DNA of 23,954 nucleotides from Spirochaetaceae bacterium (lineage in GTDB: Bacteria > Spirochaetota > Spirochaetia > SZUA-6 > Bin103), in assembly GCA_028818385.1 (NCBI GenBank), contig JAPPNY010000194.1, positions 1-23,954 of the forward strand, written 5' to 3'. The notes below the pieces were generated by a model that saw only the letters and a list, made by a program, of their open reading frames with translations, ran no database searches and had not been told where the DNA came from. This document shows positions 7,353 to 23,954 of this stretch, in pieces (position 1 is the stretch's first letter; each line of letters starts with the position of its first letter). The translations under genes were made by a program, and so were the position numbers.

Positions 7353-7445
7353 GGGCACCCCAGTGGTCGTCGACGATCTTTGCATCGTAACGTCGCGTGT
7401 CACCCGTTCGGCTGAGCCCAAGCTGGTCGCGACGAGCTCGGGTAG

Positions 7446-8569: not shown

Positions 8570-8626
8570 TCAATGTGTGCGGGCGAGGCGGTATCGGCTA
8601 CTCTGACGGCGCACCGGGGAGGTTCC

Positions 8627-9874
8627 ATGCACGAAGGTGAGATACGCGTCGGCGTGATCGGTGTCGGCCGCGGCGAGAGCTTCATCAAGGGCGCCACGGA
8701 CGCCGTGGGGATGAAATTGGTCGCCCTCTGCGACACGTGGGAGGAACGGCTGCAGGCCGCCGGCCGTACCCACGGGGTCGCCACCTACACGGACTACGAC
8801 GCGTTCCTGGAGCACGACCTGGACGCGGTGATCCTGGCCAACTACTTCCACGAGCACGGGCCGTTCGCGGTCAAGGCGCTCGACGCCGGCAAGCACGTTC
8901 TCAGTGAGACCTCGTCGAACGGCACGATCGCTGAAGGAGTGGCGCTCTGCCGGGCGGCGGAGCGCTCGGGCTGCGTCTACATGCTGGCCGAGAACTACTG
9001 CTACACCGTCTTCAGCCAGGAGATGCGCCGGCTGTACCGCACCGGCGAGATCGGCCGGGCCACCTATGCCGAGGGCGAGTACAATCACCCCATGGTGCCC
9101 GACGCCCGCCTGCGCTTGGCGCCGGGCGAGCACCACTGGCGCAACTGGCTGCCGTCCACCTACTACTGCACTCACGCGCTGGCGCCGCTGGTCTACATCA
9201 CCGGGTCGATGCCGAGGATCGTCAATGGCCTGTCCATCGTCGCCCCGGAGGTCGACGAGCTCAGCATGCGCCGCAGCGATCCCGGCTCGGTGATCCTCTG
9301 CCGCATGGACGACGGCTCGGTGTTCCGGATCTTCGGCCTGGTGCTGCCGGGACACAGCAACTGGTACCGCGTGCACGGCACGCGGGGGGCGATGGAGATC
9401 GCGCGCGGGCCGGGCTACTTCGGTCCGGGGGAGGTGCGCGTCTGGCACGAACCGTGGAACCGCTGGCCGGAGCAGCCGCTGGAGCGCTCGTACCTTCCCG
9501 ATTGGCCCGAGCACGCCGAGCTGGCCGAGCGCGCCGGCCACGGCGGCGGCGACTTCTGGACCAACTACCACTTCGCGCGGGCGATCCGCTCGGGCGAGCG
9601 GCCGTTCCTGGACGTCTACCGGGGCGTGGCGATGAGCTCGGTCGGCATCCTGGCGTGGCGGAGCGCGTTGCAGGACGGCCAGCCGGTCGAGGTGCCCGAC
9701 TTCGCCGACGAAGCGCAACGGGCGAAGTACCAGGACGACACCTGGTCGCCGTGGCCGGACGGCGCCGAGCCGCCGGATGCGCCGCCCAGCATCGCGGCGA
9801 CTCGCGAGCCGACTACGGCGGCGAAGGCGCGCGCCCGGGAGCTCTGGGACGAGATGGGATACGGAGGCAGATGA
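8627..9874 (+). CDS. Gfo/Idh/MocA-family oxidoreductase
   Basis: This 415-aa NAD(P)-dependent oxidoreductase likely acts on a sugar or polyol. The start at 8627 is chosen because GGGGAGG lies six bases upstream and the Rossmann strand begins at once; the frame is open to 8543. Seen: the nucleotide loop VGVIGVGRGE, the aspartate of ALCDTWEER ending the second strand, and DLDAVILANYFHEHGPFAVK. A C-terminal alpha/beta domain has HHWRNWLPSTYYCTHAL and ends in a variable tail. The usual EKP motif after KHVL is replaced by SETSSNG, so the catalytic Lys of the family is not at its normal place. The substrate is unknown. Its stop overlaps the ATG of the next gene by four bases, showing translational coupling to a PhyH-type oxygenase. 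Confidence 0.88.
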   Translation: MHEGEIRVGVIGVGRGESFIKGATDAVGMKLVALCDTWEERLQAAGRTHGVATYTDYDAFLEHDLDAVILANYFHEHGPFAVKALDAGKHVLSETSSNGTIAEGVALCRAAERSGCVYMLAENYCYTVFSQEMRRLYRTGEIGRATYAEGEYNHPMVPDARLRLAPGEHHWRNWLPSTYYCTHALAPLVYITGSMPRIVNGLSIVAPEVDELSMRRSDPGSVILCRMDDGSVFRIFGLVLPGHSNWYRVHGTRGAMEIARGPGYFGPGEVRVWHEPWNRWPEQPLERSYLPDWPEHAELAERAGHGGGDFWTNYHFARAIRSGERPFLDVYRGVAMSSVGILAWRSALQDGQPVEVPDFADEAQRAKYQDDTWSPWPDGAEPPDAPPSIAATREPTTAAKARARELWDEMGYGGR

Positions 9875-10683
9875 TGGCGATCGGCACCGAGTCACAGGCC
9901 ACCGCCGAGCACGTGACGCAGCTCCAGCAGGACGGCTATTGCGTGATCCGCGGGCTGTATTCCGAGGAGGAGACGCGACCGGTCCGCGCGCGGATCGAGG
10001 AGATGTACGAAGGCCGCCACGACTACGGGTGGCCCAACCCGCATCTGCAGACGTGGGACCCGGAGGACCGCGACACGCCCGGCGGCAACTACCGCTCCGG
10101 CTCCCTGCAGCGGCCGGCGGACATCGAGTCCGTCTTCGCCGACTTCGCGGCAAGCCCGAAGCTGATCGCCGCAATGGAGACGCTGCTCGGCGGCCCGGTG
10201 CGCCACTACACCGACCAGACGATCTTCAAGCCGTCGGTGTTCAAGGCCGGGCGCAGCTTCTACCACCAGGACTGCTTCTACTGGAAGCTGCGGCCGAAGG
10301 TGTGCCTGAACTGCTGGGTGGCCCTGGACCGGGTCGACCGCGGGATCATGGCGCTGGGCTTCCTGCCCGGCTCGCACCGCCGCTGGCGGGTTCAGTTCCA
10401 CGAGGCATACTGGGACCAGGTGCCCAAGCATGGCCGCGACGGCAGCACCTACCAGCGCCGGCGGATACCGTTGGAGGTCGTCGACGACTCCGCGGAGGAT
10501 CTGATTCCGGGCGAGCCCGGCGACGCGTTCTTCTTCGACAACTACATCTGGCACCGCGGCGAGCCCAACCTGGGTGAGGTCAACCGCGCCGCGTACGCGA
10601 TCGCCTACCAGCTCGACCGCGACGACAACCGGCTCTCCGACGGGGAGTTCGCGGAGCTGACCGACGGAGCGCCGCAGGGATAG
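9871..10683 (+). CDS. Phytanoyl-CoA dioxygenase (PhyH)-family oxygenase 1
   Basis: This 270-aa protein is a predicted Fe(II)/2-oxoglutarate-dependent oxygenase. Seen: the N-terminal LQQDGYCVIRGLYSEEE typical of the family, the metal-binding HxD in SFYHQDCFYW, the distal His in YIWHRGEPN, and the 2-oxoglutarate-binding Arg region NRAAYAIAY. Family members hydroxylate lipids, natural products or small metabolites; the substrate here cannot be read from sequence. It begins at 9871 inside the end of the oxidoreductase gene with CGGAGG just upstream, so the two are co-translated. It is closely related to the gene at 12598, with which it shares a perfectly identical 112-bp stretch over the metal-site region. 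It ends seven bases from the convergent ATPase/nuclease gene. Confidence 0.9.
   Translation: MMAIGTESQATAEHVTQLQQDGYCVIRGLYSEEETRPVRARIEEMYEGRHDYGWPNPHLQTWDPEDRDTPGGNYRSGSLQRPADIESVFADFAASPKLIAAMETLLGGPVRHYTDQTIFKPSVFKAGRSFYHQDCFYWKLRPKVCLNCWVALDRVDRGIMALGFLPGSHRRWRVQFHEAYWDQVPKHGRDGSTYQRRRIPLEVVDDSAEDLIPGEPGDAFFFDNYIWHRGEPNLGEVNRAAYAIAYQLDRDDNRLSDGEFAELTDGAPQG
10206..10317 (+). repeat. 112-bp tract identical to 12909-13020
   Basis: PhyH genes 1 and 2 are base-for-base identical over this stretch, which encodes the segment around the metal-binding HQD. By eye, the sequences on both sides agree at only about three quarters of positions. Identity at synonymous sites argues for a recent short conversion tract rather than protein-level selection alone. 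Confidence 0.85.
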
Positions 10684-10689
10684 CGGATT

Positions 10690-12468
10690 CTACGCTGGTG
10701 TCACCGCCTCGCAGACCACCAGCTCCCAGCCGTGGAACACGAGGGCGAGTCCGGTGAAGCGCACGCCCGGGTACTGGCGAGCGAGCCGTTCATCCGCCAG
10801 GTAACCCCGTAGCTGCGCGCTCGCTTCGGCGAGCGCCGCCGCGATGCGCCCCTCGCCGGCCGATGCGCCGCGACGCAGATACTTGAGCTCGATCAGGTAG
10901 CCGCGCGTAAGGTGCGGGAATCGCGCCAGCAGCGGCTCCAGGCTGATGTCCGCATGGCCCTTTCCGAGCTCCGGCTCGCTGCGAAAAACGTAGTAATCCG
11001 TCACGCTCAGGTAGGCGGCCAGGAACCCCTGCAGCACCTTCTCGCCGGCGATGTAGTCGCGGATGGCAGTCTGCGCGGCGATGGCCTCGGCCAGGAACTC
11101 GAACACCGGCCGCCACTCGCCCTGATTGGCCATCCGCATCATCCGCTGCCCGAACTCGTACAGGTTGACGTCGAACGCCCCGGCGTCCTCGTACGCCTCG
11201 CGCAGGTACTCGTACATCAGCCGCTTCACGGTCTGGTTGGGAATCGCCAGCCGGGGAACCCCGTCCACGATCTCCCGGATGCTCAGCAGGCCGAAGAAGT
11301 GCAGTAGGGAGAGAAAGTTCTCCCGCTTGATGAGCCGCTTGAGGGGGAAGCTCGGCTGAATGCCGGCGTCGGCGGACTCGGTGCCGATGATGCCGCGCAG
11401 CAGGTCGAAGTTGCCGTTCAGGCGCGCGGAGCCTTCGGCGCTGCGACGGTTGACCACCAGCAGGTGGCGGAGCTTGCCGTAGTCGATACGCACGTTGGTG
11501 TCGATCAGATAGACAGGTACCGGCCGGTTCGGCACGGACTTCTGCAGGTAGTAGAGCACCATGTCGGTGTTGTAGAGGACGGTCTCGGCCTCCTCGGCGA
11601 AGCGGTAGCCGTCGTACCACGCGCGCATGATGCCCAGCGCGGTGTCGACGTCCTGACTGAATGCGCCGTGGCTGCGGTACCGCTCCACGAGGCCGTGCAC
11701 CTCCGCCTCCGTGAAGCCCAGCATCTCGTTGAACGCCGGCTCCAGGCTGAGGTTGGTGCCGATGTTGAAGCCTGAGGTCACGTCGTCCATGGTCACGGGC
11801 GACACGCCGGTGATGAACAGCCGCTCCAGGCCGCCGCCGCTGCGTTCGGTGCCGGTCTTCAGCGTGGCGAAGAAGTTGCGGTAGAAGCCGCCGCCGTGAG
11901 TGAGATTCTCGTACGCCTCGGCGCCGTGGTGGGCCAGGATGGTGTTGGCGAAGTTGTCGTACTCGTCGATCAGCACGTAGAGCGGCACGTCGTGCTCGCC
12001 GGCGTAATGGAAGAGTTCGCCGAGCTTGTCGGTGATGCCGTCCGGGGCCAGGATGCGTTGCCGCGCCGCTTCCGGGAACAGGTCCGGAAAGCGTTCCATC
12101 GCCCCGCGCAACTCCATGTGGCAGTAGGTCTCGAAACTCCGTTCCAGTCGCGGCAGGGCGTCGTTGACGGCGGAGAAGTTGAAGCGCAGGACGACGTAGC
12201 GATGGCGCTCGGTGGTGGGCTCGCGACCGAGGTCGGTGCCGGCGAAGACGGTGTCGAACTCGTGCGCCCAGCGCCGGTCGTAGTAGTTCTCCAGGAGCGA
12301 CAGCCAGCAGGTCTTGCCGAAGCGGCGCGGGCGGATGAAGAAGACGTAGCGCTCGTCTTCGAGGGTGCGTACGAAGCGGGTCTTGTCGACGTACAGCCAG
12401 CGGTTGAGGCGGATGCGGCGGAAGTCGGCTTCGCCGTAGGGGATGCGGGGCCAGGGATTGCTCATCAC
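10690..12468 (-). CDS. AAA-ATPase-like / PD-(D/E)XK nuclease-like protein
   Basis: This 592-aa protein matches the AAA-ATPase-like plus PD-(D/E)XK (DUF1703) architecture. Seen: the N-terminal IPYGEADFRRIR and YVDKTRFVRTLE, a Walker A-like RPRRFGKTCWLS at about residue 50, a Walker B-like YVLIDEYDNF, and a C-terminal nuclease-like core with GHADISLEP then YLIELKYLRR (the ExK half-motif). Known of the family: these genes occur in many dispersed copies in some bacteria and are suspected of roles in defence or mobile elements, but function is unproven. The first codon is GTG at 12468, with ATG at 12465 next. No clear ribosome site precedes either. It lies on the opposite strand between two PhyH units, suggesting later insertion (inference). 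Confidence 0.88.
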   Translation of the reverse strand: MMSNPWPRIPYGEADFRRIRLNRWLYVDKTRFVRTLEDERYVFFIRPRRFGKTCWLSLLENYYDRRWAHEFDTVFAGTDLGREPTTERHRYVVLRFNFSAVNDALPRLERSFETYCHMELRGAMERFPDLFPEAARQRILAPDGITDKLGELFHYAGEHDVPLYVLIDEYDNFANTILAHHGAEAYENLTHGGGFYRNFFATLKTGTERSGGGLERLFITGVSPVTMDDVTSGFNIGTNLSLEPAFNEMLGFTEAEVHGLVERYRSHGAFSQDVDTALGIMRAWYDGYRFAEEAETVLYNTDMVLYYLQKSVPNRPVPVYLIDTNVRIDYGKLRHLLVVNRRSAEGSARLNGNFDLLRGIIGTESADAGIQPSFPLKRLIKRENFLSLLHFFGLLSIREIVDGVPRLAIPNQTVKRLMYEYLREAYEDAGAFDVNLYEFGQRMMRMANQGEWRPVFEFLAEAIAAQTAIRDYIAGEKVLQGFLAAYLSVTDYYVFRSEPELGKGHADISLEPLLARFPHLTRGYLIELKYLRRGASAGEGRIAAALAEASAQLRGYLADERLARQYPGVRFTGLALVFHGWELVVCEAVTPA

Positions 12469-12597: not shown

Positions 12598-13383
12598 ATG
12601 GTCACCGAAGAACACAAGCAGCAGCTCGACCGGGACGGCTACTGCGTCGTCCGCGGCCTGTTCGACCAGGCGGAGACCGTTCCGGTGCGCGCCCGGATGG
12701 AGGAGCTCTGGAACGGCTACCACGACTACGGCTGGCCGCACCGCCACCTTCAGACCTGGGACCCCGACGACCGGGACACCCCCGGCGGCAATTACCGCTC
12801 CGGCTCCCTGCAGCTTCCGTCCGCCATCGAAACCGTGTTCGACGACTTCACCGGGCATCCCAAGCTGGTGGGCGCCATGGAGGCGCTGCTCGGGGGACCG
12901 GTGAAGCGCTACACCGACCAGACGATCTTCAAGCCGTCGGTGTTCAAGGCCGGGCGCAGCTTCTACCACCAGGACTGCTTCTACTGGAAGCTGCGGCCGA
13001 AGGTGTGCCTGAACTGCTGGATCGCCCTCGACCAGGTGGCGCCGGACGCCATCGCCCTCGGCTTCCTGCCCGGCACGCACGCCCGCTGGCGGATCCAGTT
13101 CCACGAGCAGTACTGGGACCAGGTCGCCCAGCACGGCCGAGACGGCCAGAAGTACCAGCGCAAGAGGATCGCCCTGGACGTGGTGGACGACTCGCAGGAG
13201 GACCTGATCTCCGGCGGGCCGGGCGATGCCTACTTCTTCACCAACTACGTCTGGCACCGCGGCGAGCCCAACCTGAGCGGTGTCAACCGCGCCGCCTACG
13301 CCATCGCCTACCAGCTCGACCGGGACGACAACCTCCTGTCGGAAGACGAGTTCGACGCGCTGATGGACGGGGCGCCGCAGTGA
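12598..13383 (+). CDS. Phytanoyl-CoA dioxygenase (PhyH)-family oxygenase 2
   Basis: This 261-aa Fe(II)/2-oxoglutarate oxygenase is a close paralogue of the gene at 9871. The ATG at 12598 is preferred because GAGGAGGG sits a few bases upstream; the frame is open to 12562. Seen: LDRDGYCVVRGLFDQAE, metal HxD in SFYHQDCFYW, distal His in YVWHRGEPN and the Arg in NRAAYAIAY. A TATACT at 12565-12570 could be its -10 box, but no good -35 accompanies it. The stop overlaps the GTG of the next oxygenase by four bases, so genes 2 and 3 form a coupled pair. The pair differs from the 8627-10683 pair in having a second PhyH instead of an oxidoreductase. Substrate unknown. Confidence 0.9.
   Translation: MVTEEHKQQLDRDGYCVVRGLFDQAETVPVRARMEELWNGYHDYGWPHRHLQTWDPDDRDTPGGNYRSGSLQLPSAIETVFDDFTGHPKLVGAMEALLGGPVKRYTDQTIFKPSVFKAGRSFYHQDCFYWKLRPKVCLNCWIALDQVAPDAIALGFLPGTHARWRIQFHEQYWDQVAQHGRDGQKYQRKRIALDVVDDSQEDLISGGPGDAYFFTNYVWHRGEPNLSGVNRAAYAIAYQLDRDDNLLSEDEFDALMDGAPQ
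12909..13020 (+). repeat. 112-bp tract identical to 10206-10317
   Basis: This is the second copy of the perfect 112-bp match, located at the same place in the paralogous oxygenase gene. The offset is 2703 bp and the orientation is the same. Confidence 0.85.
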
Positions 13384-14462: not shown

Positions 14463-14595
14463 CGACTGCTGCTGCATCCCTTCGGGAAGCGTTCCAACGC
14501 ATGCGTGGCATGGCACGCCGTAGCTTGAGGACGACGAGGTGGCCACGACGTATGATCGCCGCCACGTCACTGGTCAACCGGAGGGATTTACTATC

Positions 14596-17139
14596 TTGAA
14601 GCGCCCCGCGTGGGGAAAGGTCGACGTAGAGAGCGGCGACTACCACCCGCTCGCCCACCACTCGATGGACGTTGCGGCGGTCTTTCTGCGGATGCTGGAG
14701 ATCCCGGTCATTCGAGACCGCCTGACGACTGCTGCCGGCGGGCCTGTCTCGTCGATGACCCGCCAGCGACTGGCTGTGCTTGTGTTCCTGCACGACATCG
14801 GCAAGCTCCATCCCGGCTTCCAGGCAAAGGGCTGGCCTCCGGGGCTATGGACGCGTCCTCTGTTCGGACATGTCGACAAAGGATGCGAGTTCTTCGAACT
14901 GGCGTTCAGATGGCCTGACCATCCATTTCACGCGACAGTCGCAAAGATCGTCAGCTGGGGAGAAGCGGCCGGACCATTGCTGGATGCGGTCCTCGCGCAC
15001 CATGGAAAGCCAATCGCGGAGACGGCTGATCCGTCGCGCGCATCTTGGAGCGTGGAACCTCACTATGACTGGTGCGATCAGGCAGGTGTCATGGCCGATG
15101 CCCTTCACCGCTGGTTCGACGACGCACTCGGTTCGCGAGCGGAGCCGCTTCCCGACGAGCCCCCGCTTCACCATCTGGTAGCCGGATTGGTGGCTCTGGC
15201 CGACTGGATCGCTTCGGACCGCCAGTTTTTCCCGTTCGCAGCCCCGTTCGACTTCAGCTACGACGCGACAGCCCACGACCACGCCCGAGACGCGTTGGCC
15301 GCCATCGGATTCGACCCTGGAGCCCTGCTTGGCCGTCCGGCACCGGGCTTCTCGCAGATGGCCGGACACCCGGCATCGCGCCCGGTGCAGGCCGCTGTCG
15401 CGGCCGTCAGGAACGACGCTCACCTCATGGTCCTCGAAGCTGAAACCGGGTCGGGCAAGACGGAGGCTGCGCTGTGGCGCTTCATGCTGCTGTTTGCGGC
15501 GGGAGCTGTATCGGGAATGTATTTCGCGGTGCCCACGCGCGCTGCCGCACGCCAGTTGCACCGGCGGATCAACTCCGCGCTCCGCCGCGCATACGGAGCC
15601 GATGCTCCCGAGGCCGTGCTGGCCATTCCCGGAATGGTACGCGCAGGAGATGTTACCGGCCGCGCGCTGCCAGACTGGCGCGTCCTGTGGGAGGACCAGT
15701 GCAGTCCGGTTCCCGCGCGATGGGCGGCGGAGCATGCAACCCGCTTCCTCGCAGCGACTGTCGCGGTCGGAACGGTGGATCAGGCGATGCTCGCAGCACT
15801 CCAGGTGAAGCATGCGCATCTGCGCGGCAGCGCCCTGAGCCGAAGCCTGCTCGTGATCGACGAGGTGCACGCCTCGGACGCGTACATGACCGCAGTGATC
15901 GATCGGTTGCTGAGCGGGCACCTCGCCGCCGGCGGATACGCGCTGCTGATGTCAGCCACCCTTGGCGCCCGAGCCCGCGCTCGATGGCTTGAGCACGCAG
16001 TGCCCAAGTTGGAAGACGCGACGCGCGCACCCTACCCTGCAGTGTGGGTCAGAGGGGACCCGCGACCGAGCGGCAGCGCGGGAGCCGGCGGCGTGACGAA
16101 GACGGTTCAAATCGCGACGGTTCCAACGATGGCGCCCGCTTCCACGGCCGACTACGCCATCTCTGAAGCGAGCCGGGGCGCTCGGGTCCTCGTAATACGG
16201 AACACCGTCCGTGCCGCGGTCTCTACGTGGGAGGAGGTGTGTGCAGCCGGGGGCGAGGCGCTACTCATGAGAGCAGCCGGCCGGGCGTCCCTCCATCACA
16301 GCCGCTTTGCGGTGGAGGACCGCAGGCTACTCGATGACGCCGTGGAGTCTGCGCTGAGCATCGATCCAGCGCGCACGAACGAAGGACGCATCGTCATTGG
16401 TACGCAGACGCTGGAACAGTCTCTCGATATCGACGCCGATCTGCTGATCACCGATCTGTGCCCGATGGACGTTCTGCTGCAACGCATCGGTCGCGTACAC
16501 CGCCATCGTTTGCCGCGCCCGAGCGGTTTCGAGGACGCGCGTGCAGTCGTGCTGCTTCGCGCCGAAGGACTGGACCCTCTTACCGCCCCCGCCTTCGACA
16601 ACGGCCTCGGGACGTGGGACGGTCCCGGCGGTCAGGGCGGCATCTACCAGGACCTTGCCGTCTTGGAGCTCACCCAGCGCATGGTCGCTGCGCATGGCGT
16701 ATGGGAAATTCCTGCTATGAACCGAGTTCTGGTGGAGGAAGCGACTCACCCCGACCTTGTAGCGGAAGTGCTCGCAGAGAAGGGGGAGGACTGGGAAAGC
16801 TACGATCGCAAGGTAGGTGGGGCGCGGGCAGCGGAGGAGCAGTTCGCCAGGATGAACGCACTTGACCGGTCCAAACCCTTTGACGGGCTACGATTTCCCG
16901 GCGGGGACGAGCGCATCATGACGCGGTTTGGGGAGGAGGGCGCCGTACTCCAACTTGAGCCAGCGCCGGTGGGGCCGTTCGAGGTTGAGGTTACGCGCAT
17001 CACGTTGCCGCCGCACTGGTCCTTCGGCATCACCGCGGACCACCAGATCCGCGTCGAACGGGATGGATCAGATCTCTCCTTCATGGTCGCCGACAAGGAC
17101 TTCGGCTACAGCCGAACTGGGCTCGCCAAGGGACCTTGA
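14596..17139 (+). CDS. cas3: Cas3 HD nuclease-helicase, type I-E
   Basis: Cas3 is the helicase-nuclease recruited by Cascade to degrade target DNA. Seen in order: the HD domain (YHPLAHHS, FLHDIGKLHPGF, LAHHGKP), helicase motif I ETGSGKTEAAL at about residue 282, motif II IDEVHASDAYM at about 421, motif III LMSATLG at about 453, and motif VI LLQRIGRVHRHR at about 628. All catalytic motifs look intact, and the size (847 aa) is normal. I prefer the TTG at 14596, preceded by GGAGGG, because WGKVDVESGDYHPL matches usual Cas3 N-termini. A GTG at 14539 would add 19 unremarkable residues. The gene is separated from casA by 277 bp carrying its own regulatory structure, so it may be expressed independently. 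A short inverted repeat (GCGTG/CACGC, 14503-14518) precedes it. Confidence 0.93.
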   Translation: MKRPAWGKVDVESGDYHPLAHHSMDVAAVFLRMLEIPVIRDRLTTAAGGPVSSMTRQRLAVLVFLHDIGKLHPGFQAKGWPPGLWTRPLFGHVDKGCEFFELAFRWPDHPFHATVAKIVSWGEAAGPLLDAVLAHHGKPIAETADPSRASWSVEPHYDWCDQAGVMADALHRWFDDALGSRAEPLPDEPPLHHLVAGLVALADWIASDRQFFPFAAPFDFSYDATAHDHARDALAAIGFDPGALLGRPAPGFSQMAGHPASRPVQAAVAAVRNDAHLMVLEAETGSGKTEAALWRFMLLFAAGAVSGMYFAVPTRAAARQLHRRINSALRRAYGADAPEAVLAIPGMVRAGDVTGRALPDWRVLWEDQCSPVPARWAAEHATRFLAATVAVGTVDQAMLAALQVKHAHLRGSALSRSLLVIDEVHASDAYMTAVIDRLLSGHLAAGGYALLMSATLGARARARWLEHAVPKLEDATRAPYPAVWVRGDPRPSGSAGAGGVTKTVQIATVPTMAPASTADYAISEASRGARVLVIRNTVRAAVSTWEEVCAAGGEALLMRAAGRASLHHSRFAVEDRRLLDDAVESALSIDPARTNEGRIVIGTQTLEQSLDIDADLLITDLCPMDVLLQRIGRVHRHRLPRPSGFEDARAVVLLRAEGLDPLTAPAFDNGLGTWDGPGGQGGIYQDLAVLELTQRMVAAHGVWEIPAMNRVLVEEATHPDLVAEVLAEKGEDWESYDRKVGGARAAEEQFARMNALDRSKPFDGLRFPGGDERIMTRFGEEGAVLQLEPAPVGPFEVEVTRITLPPHWSFGITADHQIRVERDGSDLSFMVADKDFGYSRTGLAKGP

Positions 17140-17169
17140 CGGCGCAACACGAGCCAGAGTACATTCAAC

Positions 17170-17201
17170 CGTGTTGTTGGAAGGAATGGTACGATTTCTT
17201 C
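17170..17201 (+). promoter_or_regulatory. Candidate casA promoter and pseudo-spacer target
   Basis: Two signals coincide here. First, an extended -10 element, TGG followed by TACGAT (17187-17195), predicts transcription from about 17202; no good -35 is seen, as is common for extended -10 promoters. Second, bases 17170-17186 match positions 1-17 of the pseudo-spacer at 17338 in 14 of 17 places, with mismatches at 6, 9 and 12. The remaining 15 positions do not match at all. The three bases before it are AAC (17167-17169), a possible PAM. A nearby inverted repeat (GAAGGAA 17180-17186, TTCCTTC 17199-17205) overlaps the site. A Cascade complex guided to this place would cover the promoter (inference). 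Confidence 0.65.
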
Positions 17202-17220
17202 CTTCAGGAGGCGTTCTTCG

Positions 17221-17415
17221 ATGAAACTGACGATGATGGCACTGATGACGGGCTCTCGCCGCGTTCGCTGTCTCTTTGTCGCACTCGGATGGCTTTCGGC
17301 GGATATTGGCTTCCGGAGATCCTCTCCGGATACACCTCGTGTGGTCGGTAGGAACACGCTCCCGCACGACGATTCCCCATCGCTCATGGGGCATGGCAGC
17401 GGACCGGATCACTGA
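17221..17415 (+). CDS. Mini-ORF with strong ribosome site before casA
   Basis: A perfect AGGAGG (17206-17211) lies nine bases before the ATG at 17221, the best-formed initiation site in the window. The frame encodes 64 aa beginning MKLTMMALMTGSRRVR and containing a short hydrophobic stretch CLFVALGWLSADIGF. It stops at 17413-17415, one base before the casA GTG. I recognise no family. Its second half overlaps the pseudo-repeats and pseudo-spacer, so it may not be a conserved protein. Possible roles are a translated leader coupling to casA, a CreT-like toxic small RNA whose initiation signals matter more than its product, or chance. The position between promoter and pseudo-repeats supports a regulatory role (inference). 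Confidence 0.4.
   Translation: MKLTMMALMTGSRRVRCLFVALGWLSADIGFRRSSPDTPRVVGRNTLPHDDSPSLMGHGSGPDH
17308..17400 (+). CRISPR. Degenerate one-spacer CRISPR unit (CreR/CreA-like RNA candidate)
   Basis: Pseudo-repeat 1 (17308-17337) has GGCTTCC in place of the repeat's GGTTTCC, a perfect hairpin (TCCGGAGA, loop TCC, TCTCCGGA) and an 8-nt handle ATACACCT against ATGGACCC. Pseudo-repeat 2 (17370-17400) has GATTCCCC against GTTTCCCC, a hairpin CCCCAT-CGCTC-ATGGGG against CCCCGC-CCAC-GCGGGG (two paired G:C-to-A:T changes that keep the stem), then ATGG after one extra C. Between them are exactly 32 nt, the usual I-E spacer length, and the repeat-to-repeat period is 62 bp. The orientation matches the real array at 23926. 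The pseudo-spacer matches the candidate promoter at 17170. Established knowledge: such units act as cas-repressing or toxin-repressing guides in other systems. Function here is inferred. Confidence 0.72.
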
Positions 17416-17416
17416 G

Positions 17417-18967
17417 GTGAACCTTCTGATCGATCCGATCCTCACACTTGCCGGGGGCGAACGCGTTTCCCTACCAGGCCTGTTCGCAGCTCTGGCGGGC
17501 CGGCGGGCGCGCGGCTTCCCTGCATTGCGCGCCCATCAGCGTCCTGCGTGGCACATGTTCCTGGTGCAGCTTGCGGCCTTGGCGCTGTGGCACGCGAAGC
17601 GCGCTGCGCGGCGGCCGAGCGAGATCCCCGCCGATCCAGTCTCCTGGGCCGATGCGCTGCGTGCGCTCACCGCGAACCATCCTGACGATGCGCCGTGGCG
17701 GCTCGTGGTTGACGACGACGCGAAGCCCGCTTTCTTGCAGCCACCCGCACCACCGGGACTGAAGTGGACACCAGTGCGCACGCCGGATGAGTTGGACGTG
17801 CTGATCACCTCGCGTAATCACGACCTGAAACAGACGATAGCCTATCAGGCCGCAGCCGAAGACTGGGTGTTCGCGCTGGTCTCCCTGCAAACCAGCGAGG
17901 GTTACAGCGGAAGGGACAACCATGGTATCGCACGGATGAACGGAGGATCGTCGAGCCGCCCTCTGCTCGGCTTCGCTCCGGCGTCGGCGGATAACGAGAC
18001 CGCTATCGATCCGGCATCGTGGTGGATGCGCGATGTCCTCCTCCTGCTTGAGTTGCGCGCCGAGAACCGCGACCGCACGATCGGCACTCCCGACGGCCCG
18101 GCGCTACTGTGGTGCCTCGAATGGCCCGAGCGCCAGCAACTCGATCTGCGCACCCTGGACCCATGGTTCATCGAGGTATGCCGGAGGGTTAGACTGCATC
18201 TTGGCGACGTCATTCGTGCACGGCGCAGCACGTCGAAAGCGACGCGCGTCGACGCGAAGCAGCTCAAGGGAATGGTGGGCGATCCGTGGGCGCCGGTCCA
18301 CAAGACGGAAAAGAAGAGTCTAACCCTGAGCGGAGGCGACTTCGACTATCGCCGACTCTGGACGCTGCTGTTCTCCGGCGACTGGGAGGTGCCGCCTCTC
18401 GCGGAGGAGAACGCGTCTGGCCCCGAGCAGATGCTGCTCGTGGCGGAGGCGCTGGCGCGTGGCAATGCCAAGACGGAAGGGTTCAAGTCCCGCGTGCTGC
18501 CGATTCCCGGTAGGGTAGCGCGGCGCATGTTCTCGTCACCCACCGCTGCAACACTGTCCCAATTCCAAATGAAGGAGATCGAGGGTTTCGACACGGCGCT
18601 CCGAACGTCCCTCGCGCTGGTCGCCGCGCGCGGTGATCCAGCGCTATTGAACAGAGACCATTACGCCTGCACTAGGCCGGCGCGTACCCGCTTCAATCAG
18701 GAGGTGGACCGACTGTTCTTCCCTAATCTCTGGCGGCGTGTGGAGGCTGCCGCTGACCCGAATGCTGCCGAGACGGCGAAGACCGATTTCCTGAAGGAGC
18801 TGCATCGAGCAGCGCAGGACGAGTTCGATGGCGCGCTGCCTGCGATCCCGTGTACGGCGATTCATCGCCCCCGCGCCGAAGCGCGGGCGCGGCGGCGCTT
18901 CGGCAACACGTTGCGGCGGTCGTATCCCGAGCTGTTCACGGTGGAAGACAACGATGCGGCCGCGTAG
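17417..18967 (+). CDS. casA: Cascade large subunit Cse1/CasA (Cas8e)
   Basis: This 516-aa protein is the large Cascade subunit that reads the PAM and recruits Cas3. The GTG at 17417 is chosen because VNLLIDPILTL aligns with the usual MNLLxDPW start of Cse1; an ATG at 17393 in the same frame is less likely. Seen: ALRAHQRPAWHMFLVQLAAL, LITSRNHDLKQ, NHGIARMNGGSSSRP and MVGDPWAPV, which are typical Cse1 segments, and a C-terminal helical domain ending VEDNDAAA. The length is normal. It overlaps casB by 14 bp. Expression is probably governed by the promoter and CRISPR-like unit in the preceding gap, and its start lies one base after the mini-ORF stop. Confidence 0.93.
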   Translation: MNLLIDPILTLAGGERVSLPGLFAALAGRRARGFPALRAHQRPAWHMFLVQLAALALWHAKRAARRPSEIPADPVSWADALRALTANHPDDAPWRLVVDDDAKPAFLQPPAPPGLKWTPVRTPDELDVLITSRNHDLKQTIAYQAAAEDWVFALVSLQTSEGYSGRDNHGIARMNGGSSSRPLLGFAPASADNETAIDPASWWMRDVLLLLELRAENRDRTIGTPDGPALLWCLEWPERQQLDLRTLDPWFIEVCRRVRLHLGDVIRARRSTSKATRVDAKQLKGMVGDPWAPVHKTEKKSLTLSGGDFDYRRLWTLLFSGDWEVPPLAEENASGPEQMLLVAEALARGNAKTEGFKSRVLPIPGRVARRMFSSPTAATLSQFQMKEIEGFDTALRTSLALVAARGDPALLNRDHYACTRPARTRFNQEVDRLFFPNLWRRVEAAADPNAAETAKTDFLKELHRAAQDEFDGALPAIPCTAIHRPRAEARARRRFGNTLRRSYPELFTVEDNDAAA

Positions 18968-19532
18968 CTCATCGGTCCAAGAGACCGCCATCGCGGTGGC
19001 ACGGTGGACGCAACAGCTCGCACCGGGACCATTGGCCGAACTCAGGCGCTTGTCCGAGAGTGGCGCTCCCGCATTCTGGCGTCTGGCCGCGCAGCACCCC
19101 GCTACCATCGGCGGTGCGAGGCAGACCCGGTGGATGGTCATCGTGCGCATGATCGCGATTCTTACGCCGAAGGGCGATCCGACGAAGCGGCTGCCCCTGC
19201 ACCATTGGGACCGAAGGCTCGGCGAAGTCCTGTGCGACGGTGGCGACCCCTCCCAGGAGTGGCGAGGGCCTCCCACTTTCAGCGAGCGCCGCCTCACGCA
19301 GCTCATCGCGGCACGCGGCACGCAGCGCGCGGCACTGCTGGTGCGTGCCGTGCGAGCACTCGCGCGGACCCGACCAACGGACGCCGGAGTCAATGTCGCC
19401 GATCTCGCTTGGGCGGTACTCAAAGACGATGACGCAGCGTTGCTTGCGGCGCCGTACTACCGCCGGCTCGATCGTGCCGAGTGGATCGCGAATCAGACTG
19501 GAAACCAATCACAAGGAGCTACTGATGCCTGA
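18954..19532 (+). CDS. casB: Cascade small subunit Cse2/CasB
   Basis: This 192-aa basic, helical protein is the small Cascade subunit, normally present as a dimer that holds the displaced DNA strand. Identification rests on size, position between casA and casC, and segments such as GAPAFWRLAAQHP, WMVIVRMIAILTPKG and GVNVADLAWAVLKDDD, which resemble Cse2. The ATG at 18954 lies within the end of casA; the frame remains open further upstream but that part overlaps casA coding sequence. The stop overlaps the start of casC by 8 bp. No unusual feature seen. Confidence 0.88.
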   Translation: MRPRSSSVQETAIAVARWTQQLAPGPLAELRRLSESGAPAFWRLAAQHPATIGGARQTRWMVIVRMIAILTPKGDPTKRLPLHHWDRRLGEVLCDGGDPSQEWRGPPTFSERRLTQLIAARGTQRAALLVRAVRALARTRPTDAGVNVADLAWAVLKDDDAALLAAPYYRRLDRAEWIANQTGNQSQGATDA

Positions 19533-20649
19533 ATCCCGCTTCCTGCAGATTCACACGCTCAGCGGATACACCGCTGCACTTCTGAACCGCGACGACAGCG
19601 GCCTCGCAAAGCGTCTCCCATACGGTGATGCGTTCCGAACGCGTATCTCTTCACAGTGCCTCAAGCGGCACTGGCGGTGCGCCCAGGACCCTCATGCACT
19701 CCATGGGATCGACGGAGCGGTCGAGGCATTTCGATCCCGTGACCTCGTGACTCAGAAGGTCGTGGGTCCGTTGCGCGAGCGGTTTTCCAACGAGGTTGTC
19801 GCCGCGCTGGAGCCGGAGATTCAGATGGCGGTGTACGGCGACAAGGGAACATCCAAGGCGGGGCGCCAAACACTGCTATTCGGCGCACCCGAGATCACAT
19901 GGATCTCAGCCGAGGCGTCGCGGCTCGCCGACCAAGCCGGCGGCAGTCCGGACGCGGCGGCTACTGCCGCCAAGAAGTGGAGAGGCGAGTTTCGCGCCAA
20001 CATCAGAGCCATGCGCGAGAATGCGACCCTTCCCGCGGGCCTCGTTTCCGCGCTGTTCGGGCGCATGGTGACCTCCGACCCGGACGCGAACGTGACCGCA
20101 CCAGTGCACGTAGCCCACGCATTTACCGTGCACAGAGAAGAGCCGGAGATCGACTACTTCACAGCGGTAGACGACTTGGCCGAAGACGAGCCGGGCGCCG
20201 ACACGATTCAGGACACCGAGCTGACCTCCGGCCTCTTCTATGGGTACGTCGTGGTGGACGTTCCAGGGCTTGTCGACAACCTCGGCGCGAATGCGTCATT
20301 GGCCGGTGCGGTCCTACACAACTTCATTTATCTGATCGCCGAGGTCTCGCCCGGGGCCAAACTGGGTTCCACTGCTCCTTACGGTCGAGCGTCCTTCATG
20401 CTGTTGGAGGCCGGCGACCGCCAGCCCCGCAGTCTGGCCGAGGCCTTCCGCACGCCGTGCGAACCCTACGTCGATCCCGCCGTGACAGCGCTGTGCGGCC
20501 ATCTCGCCGCTCTGGACCGCATCTACGCCACCGGTGAAAAGAGACGCCACCTGTGTGTGGAAGACGTCAGCGTGCCCGAGTCACAACCTGGCTCGTTGGC
20601 GGACCTTGCGACTTGGGTGCAGAGTCTGCCGGGCGCAGGTGGCTCGTGA
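19525..20649 (+). CDS. casC: Cascade backbone subunit Cas7e/CasC
   Basis: This 374-aa protein forms the six-fold Cascade backbone along the crRNA. Seen: the strongly conserved N-terminus FLQIHTLSGYTAALLNRDDS and RLPYGDAFRTRISSQCLKRH typical of Cse4/CasC, plus LASxxxFGRMVTSDP-like LVSALFGRMVTSDPDANV and AHAFTVHREEPEIDYFTAVD. The ATG at 19525 has AAGGAG seven bases upstream and overlaps the end of casB. Its stop overlaps the casD GTG by four bases. In Cascade, each backbone thumb flips out every sixth crRNA base, which matters for reading the partial match of the pseudo-spacer discussed at 17308. Confidence 0.95.
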   Translation: MPESRFLQIHTLSGYTAALLNRDDSGLAKRLPYGDAFRTRISSQCLKRHWRCAQDPHALHGIDGAVEAFRSRDLVTQKVVGPLRERFSNEVVAALEPEIQMAVYGDKGTSKAGRQTLLFGAPEITWISAEASRLADQAGGSPDAAATAAKKWRGEFRANIRAMRENATLPAGLVSALFGRMVTSDPDANVTAPVHVAHAFTVHREEPEIDYFTAVDDLAEDEPGADTIQDTELTSGLFYGYVVVDVPGLVDNLGANASLAGAVLHNFIYLIAEVSPGAKLGSTAPYGRASFMLLEAGDRQPRSLAEAFRTPCEPYVDPAVTALCGHLAALDRIYATGEKRRHLCVEDVSVPESQPGSLADLATWVQSLPGAGGS

Positions 20650-21362
20650 ACCATCGCTGGCTCGTCCTCCGCCTTGAGTCGCCCCTGATGGCGTTTGGCG
20701 GTGTGGCGATCGATCAAGTCGGCCCGGTGCTCGACTTCCCGGCGGCATCGATGTTGACCGGACTGATCGGCAATGCGCTCGGCTGGCACTGGTCGCAGAG
20801 CGCAGCACATCAATCGCTGCAGGACCGCCTTACGTTCGCCGCGCGCCGCCTTCGTGACGGAACGCGGCTCACCGACACGCAGAACGCCCAGCTTGCCAAG
20901 ACGGACAAGGGCTGGACTACGCGAGGAGAGCCGGAAGGCCGCGGCGGTGCAAGCTTTAGTGCGCCGCATCGCCGCCTTCGCGAATATCACGCCGATTCGT
21001 CCGTGCGTCTCGTACTGCGTCTGGAGCCTGCCGGAGGCCCGCCGGATCTCGATCAGATTGCGGCTGCCCTGGATCGTCCTGCACGGCCGCTGTTCATCGG
21101 TCGCAAGCCGTGCCTTCCCTCCGCGCCACTGCTGGCGGCCGGCGCAGCGCGATGGGTGACCGCAGATACCGCATACGCGGCGCTATGCGCGGTGACCGAG
21201 ACGGGTGGAGTGAGAGCCCTGTGGCCCGAGAACCAGGGGCCAAGCGTTGGCGAGGCGGTAGACCGGATTGCCGAATGGACCGATCTGCGGGTGTGGCGAA
21301 CCGGCCTCCATGGTGGATCACGCAGGGTGGTGGAAGGCCGCGTGACGCCCGCCGCGCCGTGA
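20646..21362 (+). CDS. casD: Cascade subunit Cas5e/CasD
   Basis: This 238-aa RAMP protein caps the 5' handle of the crRNA. The GTG at 20646 overlaps the casC stop and is followed by the expected HRWLVLRLESPLMAFGG strand. Further Cas5 features seen are FPAASMLTGLIGNALGW, RREY-like RLREYHADSSVRLVL, and LFIGRKPCLPSAPLL, the usual signature near the end. Length is normal. No nuclease role is expected because Cas6e does crRNA processing in type I-E. It ends four bases before casE. Confidence 0.93.
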   Translation: MNHRWLVLRLESPLMAFGGVAIDQVGPVLDFPAASMLTGLIGNALGWHWSQSAAHQSLQDRLTFAARRLRDGTRLTDTQNAQLAKTDKGWTTRGEPEGRGGASFSAPHRRLREYHADSSVRLVLRLEPAGGPPDLDQIAAALDRPARPLFIGRKPCLPSAPLLAAGAARWVTADTAYAALCAVTETGGVRALWPENQGPSVGEAVDRIAEWTDLRVWRTGLHGGSRRVVEGRVTPAAP

Positions 21363-21366
21363 GAAG

Positions 21367-22146
21367 ATGAGCGCGCTCCATCTGATACGCGTCCCGCTTA
21401 CCATGAGTGCACTGGCGCGCTGGGCAGGAGAACGCGGCTGGCTGCCGGGTCGCACCGTGGCATTCGACGAAGGTCGCGCACTGCACCATCTCGTCGACGA
21501 GGCGTTCGGTCCCGGCGTGCTGCGCCCGTTTCGCTTGCTGGTAGCGCCGCGGTCCGGCGACGGCAACCTGTACTCCTACAGCAGCCAGGATGGCGAGGAA
21601 CTGCGGTGTGCGTTGCGGCACTTCGCGCTACCGGACCACCTCTGTGTCCTGCGGGAAGAGCGACTGGCAAGCAAGGCGATGCCCAGTGATTGGAGTGTCG
21701 GGCAGCGGCTTGGTTTCGATGTCCGCGTGCGCCCCGTGCGCCGCCTCCACAAAGACTTGGTGACGCCGCGGGGACGATTCCGCAACGGCTCCGAACTGGA
21801 CGCCTTCCTTTCGGAAGCGCTTCATCGCTATCCAGAGAATCGGGAGGGTATGGCAGACGGCAAACGGTCGCGCGAGGCAGTGTATCTCGACTGGCTGGCT
21901 GAGCGTCTGGAATGTGCGGCCGAGGTCGATCGTCAAGCTACCCGCATGGTCCGGTTCCACCGCACCCGAGTGGCTCGGGGGGAGCGCGTACACGAAGGGC
22001 CGGACGCCACGATCCATGGGACACTGACTGTGACGCAGCCGGAGGCGTTCGGTCATCTGTTGGCACGTGGCGTCGGCCGGCACCGGGCGTTCGGCTTCGG
22101 TATGATCCTGTTGCGCCCGCTGCAGCACTCAGCGCCGATCCGATAG
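21367..22146 (+). CDS. casE: crRNA-processing endoribonuclease Cas6e/CasE
   Basis: This 259-aa protein cuts the repeat RNA at the base of its hairpin, leaving an 8-nt 5' handle. Seen: H40 in EGRALHHLVDEAF, which lines up with catalytic His20 of the E. coli enzyme, and the C-terminal glycine-rich loop LLARGVGRHRAFGFG that binds RNA. The ATG at 21367 has GAGAAG just upstream. Its substrate here should be the CCCCGC/GCGGGG hairpin of the array at 23926. The degenerate hairpins at 17308 and 17370 keep paired stems, so Cas6e might also process them (inference). Twelve bases separate it from cas1. Confidence 0.93.
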   Translation: MSALHLIRVPLTMSALARWAGERGWLPGRTVAFDEGRALHHLVDEAFGPGVLRPFRLLVAPRSGDGNLYSYSSQDGEELRCALRHFALPDHLCVLREERLASKAMPSDWSVGQRLGFDVRVRPVRRLHKDLVTPRGRFRNGSELDAFLSEALHRYPENREGMADGKRSREAVYLDWLAERLECAAEVDRQATRMVRFHRTRVARGERVHEGPDATIHGTLTVTQPEAFGHLLARGVGRHRAFGFGMILLRPLQHSAPIR

Positions 22147-22158
22147 ACACCCGCCTAT

Positions 22159-23049
22159 ATGCTCAAAGGACGGCTCGGCCTCGAAACCGCACGCGTCCCC
22201 CACACTGACCGGCACGGCCTCATGTGGCTGGGCCGAGGAAACGTCTACGTCGAGTCGGGGACCCTCCGCTTCGTCACGGCAGGATACGGCGACCTCGGCC
22301 CCGGCGACTACGCGATCCCGTTTCAGATGGTGTCCTGTCTGCTCCTTCAGCCCGGCACCACCGTGAGCCACGACGCGCTGCGCATCCTGGCGCGCCACGG
22401 CACCACCGTGATCTGCGTGGGCGAGGACGGCGTGCGGTTCTACGCCAGTCTGCCTGCCGGCCCCGCGGCCTCGGCTCGCGCTCGGCGGCAGATACTGGCC
22501 TGGTGCAATCCCGAAACGCGTATCTCGGTCGTGCGCAAGATGTATGCCTTGCGCTTGGGCGAATTCCTGCCTTCGACCGACATCAACGCGTTGCGAGGCA
22601 TGGAAGGCGCCCGCATGAAGGTCATTTACCAGCGCCTGGCCGAGCGGCACGGCGTCCGCTGGCAGGGGCGTCGCTACGACCGCAACGACCCCGAGTCGGC
22701 GGACGTCGCCAACCAGGCCATCAACCACGCCTCCAGCGCCGTGGAAGGAGCCGCCTTGACCGCGGTCGCTGCCACGGGGACCCTCGCCGAGCTTGGATTC
22801 ATCCACGAGGACTCCAGCAACGCGTTCGCCCTGGACGTATCGGACCTGTTTCGCGACTCCGTCCTTCTGCCGATCGCATTCAGAGCGGCCAGTGCGATTC
22901 TCCGGAAGCGGGAAGGACCGGTCGAGAGAATCGTAAGGCGCTTTGCGGCACAGACCTTTCGACAGGAGAAGCTGATCGTCAACATGATCGATCGCATCAA
23001 GTTCCTGATCGACGGCGACGACGAGCATGACGATAGTCGTAACGCGTAA
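22159..23049 (+). CDS. cas1: CRISPR integrase Cas1 (type I-E)
   Basis: This 296-aa protein is the integrase that inserts new spacers at the leader end with Cas2. Seen catalytic residues are E149 in RGMEGARMK, H216 in GFIHEDSSNAF and D229 in ALDVSDLFR. Their spacing (67 and 13) equals that of E. coli Cas1 (E141, H208, D221), which supports an active enzyme. The N-terminal domain with HGLMWLGRGNVYVESGTL is typical of Cas1e. There is no fusion partner. The ATG at 22159 has no strong ribosome site, so translation may depend on the upstream gene. It overlaps cas2 by 23 bp. Confidence 0.95.
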   Translation: MLKGRLGLETARVPHTDRHGLMWLGRGNVYVESGTLRFVTAGYGDLGPGDYAIPFQMVSCLLLQPGTTVSHDALRILARHGTTVICVGEDGVRFYASLPAGPAASARARRQILAWCNPETRISVVRKMYALRLGEFLPSTDINALRGMEGARMKVIYQRLAERHGVRWQGRRYDRNDPESADVANQAINHASSAVEGAALTAVAATGTLAELGFIHEDSSNAFALDVSDLFRDSVLLPIAFRAASAILRKREGPVERIVRRFAAQTFRQEKLIVNMIDRIKFLIDGDDEHDDSRNA

Positions 23050-23386
23050 CTCTCCGGGACGCTTCCGCGGGTTCCTGGCATCCTGCATGTGCGAGATCGC
23101 ACCGGGTGTGTACACGGCGCCTCGCATGACCGTGGCCGTGAGGGAGCGGATCTGGAGTGTCCTCACCGAGTGGTACCGGCCGGCTCCGGATCACGCGATC
23201 CTGATGACGTGGCCGCAGTCGGCGCTGCCCGGAGGTCAGGAAATCCGCGTGCTCGGGATTCCTCAGCAGGACGTGTGGCGTCACGACGGCGTCTATGTGG
23301 CGAGAAGGGAGGTCGATGAGAAGACGCTCGCGCGCCTTCGAGACCGCGACGGCGAAGACTTGGGCCCATCACCTGACGCAGCGTGA
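23027..23386 (+). CDS. cas2: Cas2e adaptation protein
   Basis: Cas2 is the structural partner of Cas1 in spacer capture. Seen: the N-terminus MTIVVTRNSPGRFRGFLASC, the Cas2e segment IAPGVYTAPRMTVAVRERIW, and LGIPQQDVWRHDGVYVARRE near the usual end at about residue 96. The frame continues with a charged tail of about 23 residues to a stop at 23384-23386. This tail overlaps the start of the exonuclease gene, which lies in the +1 frame. In several type I-E systems Cas2 is fused to a DEDDh exonuclease. Here a +1 shift at the final GCG-TGA-C would join the two, so the split may be natural, programmed, or the result of a one-base change. Confidence 0.92.
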   Translation: MTIVVTRNSPGRFRGFLASCMCEIAPGVYTAPRMTVAVRERIWSVLTEWYRPAPDHAILMTWPQSALPGGQEIRVLGIPQQDVWRHDGVYVARREVDEKTLARLRDRDGEDLGPSPDAA

Positions 23387-23873
23387 CGACTGGCTGGTGA
23401 TCGACGTCGAGACCACGGGCCTCGGCCTTCAAGCCGAAGTCGTGGAGGCGGCGATCATCGGCAGCCGAGGCGATGTCCTCCTCGACACGGTGGTCCGCCC
23501 GCACACTCCTCTGGAGCCACAGGCATCCAGAGTTCATGGTCTCGACGTCGAGGCTCTCCGCGATCGGCCCCGATTCGGGCAGATCCACGGGAAGCTCATG
23601 AAACTCCTGACTCGACGGACCGTAGTCGCGTACCACGCCGAGTTTGACCGGCACGTCCTGGCTCACACGTGCCGGGCAGCCGGATTGCCTCAGATCGAGT
23701 GCACGTGGGAGTGTGCGATGCTCCGATACGAGCAGTGGCGCGGGTTTCGAGCGTCGCTCGCCACGGTCTGCGAGGTCGAGTCCATCGTCGCGGCCGGACC
23801 TCGTCATCGAGCACTGCCAGACGCCCGGCTTGTATGGAACCTGATTCGCCGCATGGCCGGCGAATCAGCGTAA
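23316..23873 (+). CDS. DnaQ-like DEDDh 3'-5' exonuclease
   Basis: This 185-aa exonuclease has motif I WLVIDVETTGLG (D30, E32), the HGLD segment of motif II region, YHAEFDRHVL with its aspartate, and a final HRALPDARLVWNLI supplying the His and Asp of DEDDh. All four acidic positions and the His appear present, so it should be active. Known: DEDDh exonucleases, free or fused to Cas2, trim prespacers for Cas1-Cas2. The ATG at 23316 is preferred because AAGGGAGG lies immediately upstream, inside cas2. The frame is open from 23295. It is the last gene before the CRISPR leader, so a role in spacer trimming is likely (inference). Confidence 0.88.
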   Translation: MRRRSRAFETATAKTWAHHLTQRDDWLVIDVETTGLGLQAEVVEAAIIGSRGDVLLDTVVRPHTPLEPQASRVHGLDVEALRDRPRFGQIHGKLMKLLTRRTVVAYHAEFDRHVLAHTCRAAGLPQIECTWECAMLRYEQWRGFRASLATVCEVESIVAAGPRHRALPDARLVWNLIRRMAGESA

Positions 23874-23925: not shown

Positions 23926-23954
23926 GGTTTCCCCGCCCACGCGGGGATGGACCC
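23926..23954 (+). CRISPR. First repeat of a type I-E CRISPR array (cut by window end)
   Basis: A single 28-29-nt repeat is visible before the window ends. It has the I-E form: GGTTT, then the hairpin CCCCGC-CCAC-GCGGGG (six pairs, four-base loop), then the 8-nt handle ATGGACCC. Its position directly after the leader and the cas operon, and the handle on the right, indicate rightward transcription. Spacers and further repeats lie outside the window, so array length is unknown. Confidence 0.85.

Follow-up and report, generated by a model that had tools for sequence, protein, structure and literature searches.

A candidate CreR-type mini-array within a leader reading frame between cas3 and casA of a type I-E CRISPR-Cas locus

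CreR and CreTA are both known, also for type I-E, as far as the portions of the literature available here describe them, and the kind of element reported below is not itself new. CreR, the cas-regulating RNA, is generally not coupled to a toxin gene (PMC12737573, available text), and autorepression by CreR has been described for types I-B, I-E and V-A (PMC13131331, available text). In haloarchaeal creTA the order is promoter, small gene and guide, and the guide represses the promoter upstream of itself (PMC9458426 and PMC8501985, in the parts seen). A sequence-only reading of the DNA studied here had proposed an undescribed degenerate mini-CRISPR of the CreA/CreR kind between cas3 and casA. 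Conservation in relatives and a match between spacer and target support its assignment to that kind. As a kind it is not undescribed: CreR autorepression in type I-E is already in print (PMC13131331), and a Cascade-repressed toxin in a type I-E cas3-casA gap has been published (PMC12055562), according to the available text of both.

Like CreR, the unit found here is crRNA-like, lies beside cas genes and has a limited match to a promoter-like site upstream of them (PMC13131331, PMC12737573, partial texts). It may differ from CreR as described there in that its guide lies downstream of its own target, inside a frame ending at casA. With CreTA it shares two degenerate pseudo-repeats, of which the first (psiR1) keeps the handle and the second (psiR2) loses it, and a small gene between target and guide (PMC9458426, PMC8501985, parts available). 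In both, so far as those texts go, the seed spans positions 1-5 and 7-11, positions 6 and 12 are free, and a PAM-flanked target lies at a promoter upstream of the guide. By contrast with CreTA in the same texts, the guide here lies inside the ORF, the interval between guide and casA in the window has no terminator-like site and the small gene is at most a putative toxin. The Cascade-repressed toxin of the Citrobacter rodentium I-E locus also occupies the cas3-casA gap, with a partial match by a PAM and a small ORF under the targeted promoter, but there the guide is encoded ahead of the ORF on the other strand, and here only one locus (L041) is inverted (PMC12055562, available text). The 8-nt handle, hairpin and 32-nt spacer resemble those of a canonical I-E array, and a model of the mini-unit also scores true arrays of the same loci. 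Unlike such an array, the mini-array has two diverged repeats, one spacer, a seed-only self-target and a spacer length varying by 6. A leader frame ahead of casA with a guide inside it was not met in the literature searched, which did not include the primary CreR paper.

The type I-E locus and its degenerate repeat-spacer unit

The window, i.e. the whole 23,954-nucleotide stretch of DNA analysed, contains cas3, cas8e (casA), cas11e, cas7e, cas5e, cas6e, cas1e and cas2e in order and with open frames. The presence of all eight cas genes and a repeat of I-E type places the locus in type I-E.

14539..17139, + strand: cas3
17417..18967, + strand: casA (cas8e), start codon GTG at 17417; PADLOC match to Cas8e, E 2.8e-151
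18828..22146, + strand: casB, cas7e, cas5e and cas6e, the rest of Cascade with the predicted guide-processing nuclease
22159..23873, + strand: cas1e, cas2e and a DEDDh exonuclease-like ORF
23926..23954, + strand: first true CRISPR repeat, GGTTTCCCCGCCCACGCGGGGATGGACCC, at the window end

The cas3 stop at 17139 is separated from the casA start by a gap of 277 bases. The casA start is most likely GTG 17417; ATG 17393 was considered and rejected on alignment with the ATGAAC/T starts of relatives. With GTG 17417 as the start, psiR2 would stop short of the start codon. The DEDDh exonuclease-like ORF (23295-23873) overlaps the end of cas2e, a cas2-exonuclease pairing.

The gap contains the following unit, a degenerate repeat-spacer unit adjoining cas genes as in CreR.

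17308..17337, + strand: psiR1, pseudo-repeat 1, with the 8-nt handle ATACACCT at 17330-17337
17338..17369, + strand: psiS, the 32-nt guide spacer
17370..17398, + strand: psiR2, pseudo-repeat 2, with its stem at 17375-17391

The two repeat-like hairpins of the sequence-only reading, with a 62-nt period, a 32-nt interval and the orientation of the array, were confirmed. The psiR1 hairpin is TCCGGAGA-TCC-TCTCCGGA (17312-17330) and that of psiR2 is CCCCAT-CGCTC-ATGGGG (17375-17391); the two stems begin at 17313 and 17375, a distance of 62 nt. Both hairpins are oriented like the true array repeat. The reported agreement of the psiR1 handle with the array handle at five of eight places also holds (ATACACCT against ATGGACCC, from the array repeat at 23926-23954). 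Folding of the psiR1 hairpin was better than that of shuffles (z = -3.8). The psiR2 fold was no better than chance (z = -0.6; 48 of 200 shuffles as good), and the GC-rich window holds five hairpin pairs at about the mini-array spacing, so that such pairs are not rare in it. Hairpins and spacing alone thus prove nothing. What lifts the mini-array above chance is its conservation with compensating stem changes, together with the match between its spacer and a target. An Rfam search returned no match within 17000-17500.

Conservation, spacer-target match and PAM

A genome scan with casA gave 44 loci, so that 45 were compared with the window included. Ten of the 44 relatives, from several phyla, carry a mini-array on the same strand just before casA (11 of 45 with the window). 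The unit and its compensating stem changes therefore withstood the check on relatives that had been suggested from the window. Carriers are named as Alphaproteobacteria, Gammaproteobacteria, Acidobacteriota, Deinococcota and Chloroflexota and are mostly metagenome bins; the L026 unit, with handle ATAGACCC, is from Paracoccus kondratievae. The contig of L016 is without cas3 and its gap was outside the survey.

Counted over the 11 same-strand loci, the five outer pairs of the stem form in 54 of 55 cells for psiR1 and 55 of 55 for psiR2, with stem arms set by hand, locus by locus, which leans towards pairing. Two-sided changes were found at pairs 1, 3, 4 and 5 of psiR1 (four of five) and at pair 5 only of psiR2 (one of five). 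RNAalifold on a MAFFT alignment recovered the psiR2 stem and not the psiR1 stem; the loop of psiR1 varies in length. The spacer is 32 nt long in nine loci, 20 nt in L007 and L035 and 26 nt in the inverted L041, lengths which lie 6 apart. Cascade likewise has a pitch of 6 on its guide. The 20-nt spacers (L007:7933-7952 and L035:3338-3357) are two 6-nt Cascade steps shorter, and the leader frame is kept in both.

The inverted unit of L041 (SAR202, Chloroflexota) lies at 7443-7468 on the minus strand of the gap 7397-7994, has a spacer read by hand as 26 nt and shows two seed-like sites matching at nine of ten positions each, with flanks AAC and AAT. It lies upstream of a small cysteine-rich ORF (7696-7872). 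At L036:7907-8001 the handle is altered, one stem pair is broken and there is no target, and the unit looks decayed. A second casA match was found in the genome of L036 (G008).

A covariance model built from the 11 units scores them top by construction, and the next matches compared were repeat-spacer-repeat segments of true arrays, e.g. L009:8961-9054 in the array 8293-9971. At the match L008:7013-7101, where no array was detected, a true-looking repeat and one spacer are followed by a degenerate second copy of the repeat (CCCCATATCGGATGGGG stem). Eleven further loci read by eye contained no mini-array: eight genomic ones from casA searches of five genome groups (L049, L052, L053, L062-L064, L067 and L068) and three from plasmids (L069-L071). 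Left out were L054, L055 and L059, which are partial matches, and plasmid matches H3 and H5; re-found loci were removed (L057 = L023, L058 = L021, L066 = L010). A scan of both strands for the handle pattern, covering L052, L053, L062-L064, L067, L068 and the gaps of eight of the first 44 loci, found only L041. Neither casA relatives in viral contigs nor matches to the L026 gap in plasmids were found. A search of 390 genomes of one order with the RNA model, limited to ten scored candidates per genome and hence saying little, returned only the known Paracoccus locus.

On the casA tree the 11 same-strand loci need seven changes, at least five of them forced by well-supported branches (43 rows, in which L010 and L066 are the same locus, L041 is counted as without the unit and L031, L039 and L044 are dropped). 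The unit can be present in one of two close relatives and absent from the other, as in L020 (present) and L010 (absent) and in L027 (present) and L025 (absent). In unit-less relatives cas3 often overlaps or abuts casA. The unit thus seems to put Cascade under its own promoter, apart from cas3.

The sequence-only reading had named no target. We found one 168 nt upstream of the spacer, beside promoter-like sequence.

17136..17165, + strand: predicted sigma-70-like promoter TTGACG-N18-TACATT (consensus match only)
17167..17169, + strand: PAM AAC of the self-target
17170..17201, + strand: protospacer targeted by the guide; only 17170-17186 match, with mismatches at positions 6, 9 and 12

When positions 6 and 12 are set aside, the window spacer agrees with 17170-17186 at 14 of 15 positions, and nine of its ten seed positions match. 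The next best place in the whole window, on either strand, scores 12 and has the flank GCA. Positions 18-32 show zero matches in the window, and nine independent loci match at 30 of 111 positions from 18 on, about the chance level. Nine of ten independent loci have a seed match of 9-10 of 10 positions in their own gap, the exception being L036, which has no target. Combined by Fisher's test over the ten loci, L036 included, the shuffle p values (any PAM) gave about 2e-13. Because targets had been chosen as best matches, own pairs of spacer and target were also compared with crossed pairs. Own pairs match at 86 of 90 positions (L036 left out of this count), whereas crossed pairs average 4.8 of 10 with a maximum of 8, and the best of 20,000 random re-pairings scored 80, short of 86. 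L042, a near copy of L026, entered neither the Fisher nor the re-pairing test, nor the ORF product described below. The nine loci have nine different seeds, indicating that guide and target changed together. For L001 and L027 the 17-nt score was not above shuffles (373 and 227 of 1000).

Matches per position in the nine loci number eight or nine at positions 1-5 and 7-11, one at position 6 and two at position 12. The CreA of Halobacterium hubeiense was shown by experiment to need 1-5 and 7-11 and not 6 and 12 (PMC8501985, available part); the free positions of the mini-arrays follow the same rule. Between the two Paracoccus loci, L026 and L042, the target differs at positions 12, 16, 18, 21, 23 and 25, with the PAM and positions 1-11 unchanged. 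At L007 both guide and target are kept, about 30 nt apart. A psiR1 handle combined with a seed match at the predicted promoter of the small gene, as in the guide of CreTA, is present in the window.

The AAC flank of the window target recurs at the targets of L001, L026, L042, L027, L035 and L040, making AAC the self-target PAM at seven of ten loci, with TAC at two and AAT at one. If AAC or AAT is required, L002 and L020 lose their seed match (flank TAC). Real spacers of this Cas group point to the same PAM, with AAC at four of six protospacers, AAT at one and AGC at one, from five different spacers. Five of these protospacers are phage matches of the Rhodobacter capsulatus array L029: RcapNL (32/32, AAC), Jorvik (31/32, AAC), RcapMu (30/32, AAC), Ebor (30/32, AAT) and RcWaterboi (30/32, AGC, by the same spacer as RcapMu). 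The search gave seven phage records, with one place read in each of these five and second RcapMu and RcapNL records as the others. The sixth protospacer lies in plasmid pKON1 and is matched by a true spacer of the mini-array carrier L026 at 32/32 with AAC. The PAM of the mini-array self-targets, read from these flanks, agrees with that of the real spacers. Against plasmids the L029 array gave array-like matches only, the L019 array gave one weak phage match, and a single record came from each of the L021 and L042 arrays, in both cases a plasmid that carries a CRISPR locus itself. The repeat preceding the L029 spacer at 15341 (phage Ebor, PAM AAT) ends in T rather than C, as if its last base had been taken from the PAM.

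TTGACG-N18-TACATT is the only sigma-70-like promoter in 17000-17450 on either strand, with 0.1 expected in shuffles. The AAC PAM begins one base beyond its -10 element, so that Cascade bound there would cover the start site. Promoter-like pairs (at least 8 of 12) lie near the target, at varying distance, in seven of nine loci including the window; L001 and L040 have none near theirs. A TTGACA-like string (five to six of six) occurs at the cas3 stop in eight of 11 same-strand unit loci and in 10 of 33 others. As loci without the unit also carry such strings, this is weak evidence by itself. The locus has PAM-flanked partial complementarity at a putative cas promoter, as CreR has, provided that the predicted promoter does drive casA.

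A leader reading frame through the predicted guide

The mini-array lies within a small reading frame that runs towards casA.

17206..17211, + strand: AGGAGG, ribosome-binding-site-like, 9 nt before the leader ORF ATG
17221..17415, + strand: leader ORF of 64 codons, open through psiR1, spacer and psiR2, with its stop 1 nt before the casA GTG

In 10 of the 11 same-strand loci a frame starts before psiR1 and stays open through psiR1, spacer and psiR2. In all ten, its phase is that in which the handle is read as xAT-AGA-CCC, and its stop lies at most 12 nt from the casA start or overlaps it. The ORF starts beyond the target seed except at L007, where its start precedes the target by 6 nt, and at L036, which is without a target. 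At L002 the ORF is in another frame and stops in the spacer, the handle phase itself being open. By eye, most loci have a ribosome-site-like string ahead of the ORF, and the L007 ORF is without one. Compared with dinucleotide shuffles, the openness of each frame has a chance of 0.02-0.21, and that of nine jointly 1.2e-9, a product from which L002 and L042 were left out and which is uncorrected for the choice of phase and start, the omission of L002 and shared descent.

In control gaps, ORFs of at least 37 codons end at the casA start in four of seven (L004, L006, L031 and L044, that of L004 starting inside cas3), so a single leader ORF means little and only the joint openness in one phase counts. 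The ATGA overlap of leader ORF and casA was rejected as evidence, since casA in these loci mostly starts ATG-AAC/T, which gives TGA anyway, as in six of seven control gaps.

The leader ORFs show a weak coding-like bias, with GC of 0.54/0.49/0.58 at the three codon positions (276 codons, eight loci). In a public protein set, the window ORF has a homologue, P0004, with 80% identity over 95% of the ORF, and by eye its N-terminal half is kept there. The L026 ORF has homologues P0002 (80%) and P0001 (99%), and none was found for the L040 ORF. No Pfam match was obtained for any of eight leader ORFs, including that of the window, and peptides from separate lineages show little resemblance by eye. L026 and L042 differ at two of the 204 bases of the ORF and at nine of the 118 bases upstream. 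At fourfold sites there are 0 differences among 23 in the first part of the ORF, 19 among 288 in casA and 4 among 393 in the last part of cas3, numbers too small to show selection at the protein level. Together with its AGGAGG, the predicted leader ORF of the window forms a putative small gene under the targeted promoter, as in CreTA. The consecutive rare AGA/AUA codons at the ORF start that mark the tRNA-sequestering haloarchaeal CreTA were not found in it: AGA, AGG and ATA are absent from the first ten codons, with a single AGA at codon 33 and an AGG at codon 44. The leader frame may be translated and coupled to casA.

Probable autorepression of Cascade and competing explanations

The mini-array is probably a guide of the CreA/CreR type, and we favour CreR, i.e. 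autorepression of the casA operon, as its best reading on the sequence evidence. Transcription from 17136-17165 would give one RNA carrying the leader ORF, the guide and casA. Cas6e, encoded downstream, would cut it after 17329 and 17391, sites taken from type I-E biology. The 5' end at 17330 is thus the one foreseen in the sequence-only reading, whereas the predicted span of 17330-17391 is 62 nt rather than about 61. Once loaded with this guide, Cascade would bind at AAC|17170 by the seed alone and block transcription without calling Cas3. Repression without cutting is expected because only the seed pairs. Free Cascade would in this way shut its own promoter, and its loss or titration, by ordinary crRNAs or anti-CRISPR proteins, would reopen it. 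Translation of the leader ORF may feed ribosomes to casA, and excision of the guide would uncouple casA translation from it.

More tentatively, one transcript could be at once the mRNA of a leader (perhaps toxic) peptide, the guide precursor and the Cascade mRNA, with feedback in two layers. If so, Cascade with its guide would close the promoter while each Cas6e cut severs casA from incoming ribosomes, and when Cascade is lost or inhibited both brakes would go at once.

A CreTA module is the strongest competing explanation but an unlikely one. Here the guide would serve as antitoxin (CreA) by repressing the small ORF, with the ORF coding for a toxin (CreT) or being toxic itself, and the cell would be addicted to Cascade. 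CreTA shares the guide with CreR; this part of the claim is common to both. The order of promoter, small ORF and guide, with the guide repressing the promoter upstream of itself, is that of haloarchaeal creTA in the available text of PMC9458426 and PMC8501985, which would allow a toxin gene, instead of casA, to be the one repressed. In the type I-E case published for a cas3-casA gap, a 96-bp ORF has to be translated (PMC12055562, part seen). The ribosome-site-like strings before most of the ORFs, the N-terminal half kept in P0004 (both by eye) and the patchy presence of the unit, with its five or more forced gains or losses on the casA tree, are also in keeping with a toxin gene. Three observations led us to prefer CreR: the frame enters casA, the window gap has no terminator-like or second promoter-like site, and L007, which has guide and target, has almost none of the upstream ORF. 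The missing terminator is a weak point, as 0.3 such sites are expected in the gap by chance. Dissimilar peptides across lineages and the lack of Pfam matches (0 of 8) further argue against a toxin. So does the absence of AGA, AGG and ATA from the start of the window ORF, although the CreT of C. rodentium is also without rare codons (PMC12055562, available text).

It is very unlikely that the hairpins are only a cis-acting leader of casA mRNA, controlling translation or Cas6e cutting of the message with no guiding of Cascade. They do sit in an open, possibly translated leader, and at L026, L027 and L036 casA follows the GGGG arm of psiR2 at 7-11 nt, by eye a possible place for a ribosome site. 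Such a leader would account neither for the PAM nor for a spacer of 32, 26 or 20 nt, nor for a seed match in which positions 6 and 12 are free. Slightly less plausible still is a decaying remnant of an old array, out of use. Degenerate repeats and the decayed look of L036 would suit it, but selection is indicated by the two-sided stem changes and by the co-variation of spacer and target across phyla. That the hairpins arose by chance in GC-rich DNA, as the five similarly spaced pairs in the window might suggest, can be dismissed on the seed-match, stem and re-pairing comparisons among relatives.

If CreR autorepression is the correct reading, self-guided regulation of Cascade would extend to this type I-E subgroup. 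The design would be compact, with the gene of the regulator doubling as leader of the genes it regulates. It predicts a seed in which positions 6 and 12 are free, and spacers whose lengths lie 6 apart. In such genomes, guide RNA genes may be hidden within short ORFs that precede casA.

Elsewhere in the window, near-identical response-regulator-like genes lie about 5.4 kb apart at 114-2000 and 5583-7352, a recent duplication. A 592-aa ORF on the minus strand (10690-12468) resembles an AAA-ATPase with a nuclease-like tail by eye and had no PADLOC match. Paralogous stretches at 9897-10196 and 12600-12899, in dioxygenase-like genes (these and the duplicated genes were also named by eye), are 76% identical over 300 nt.
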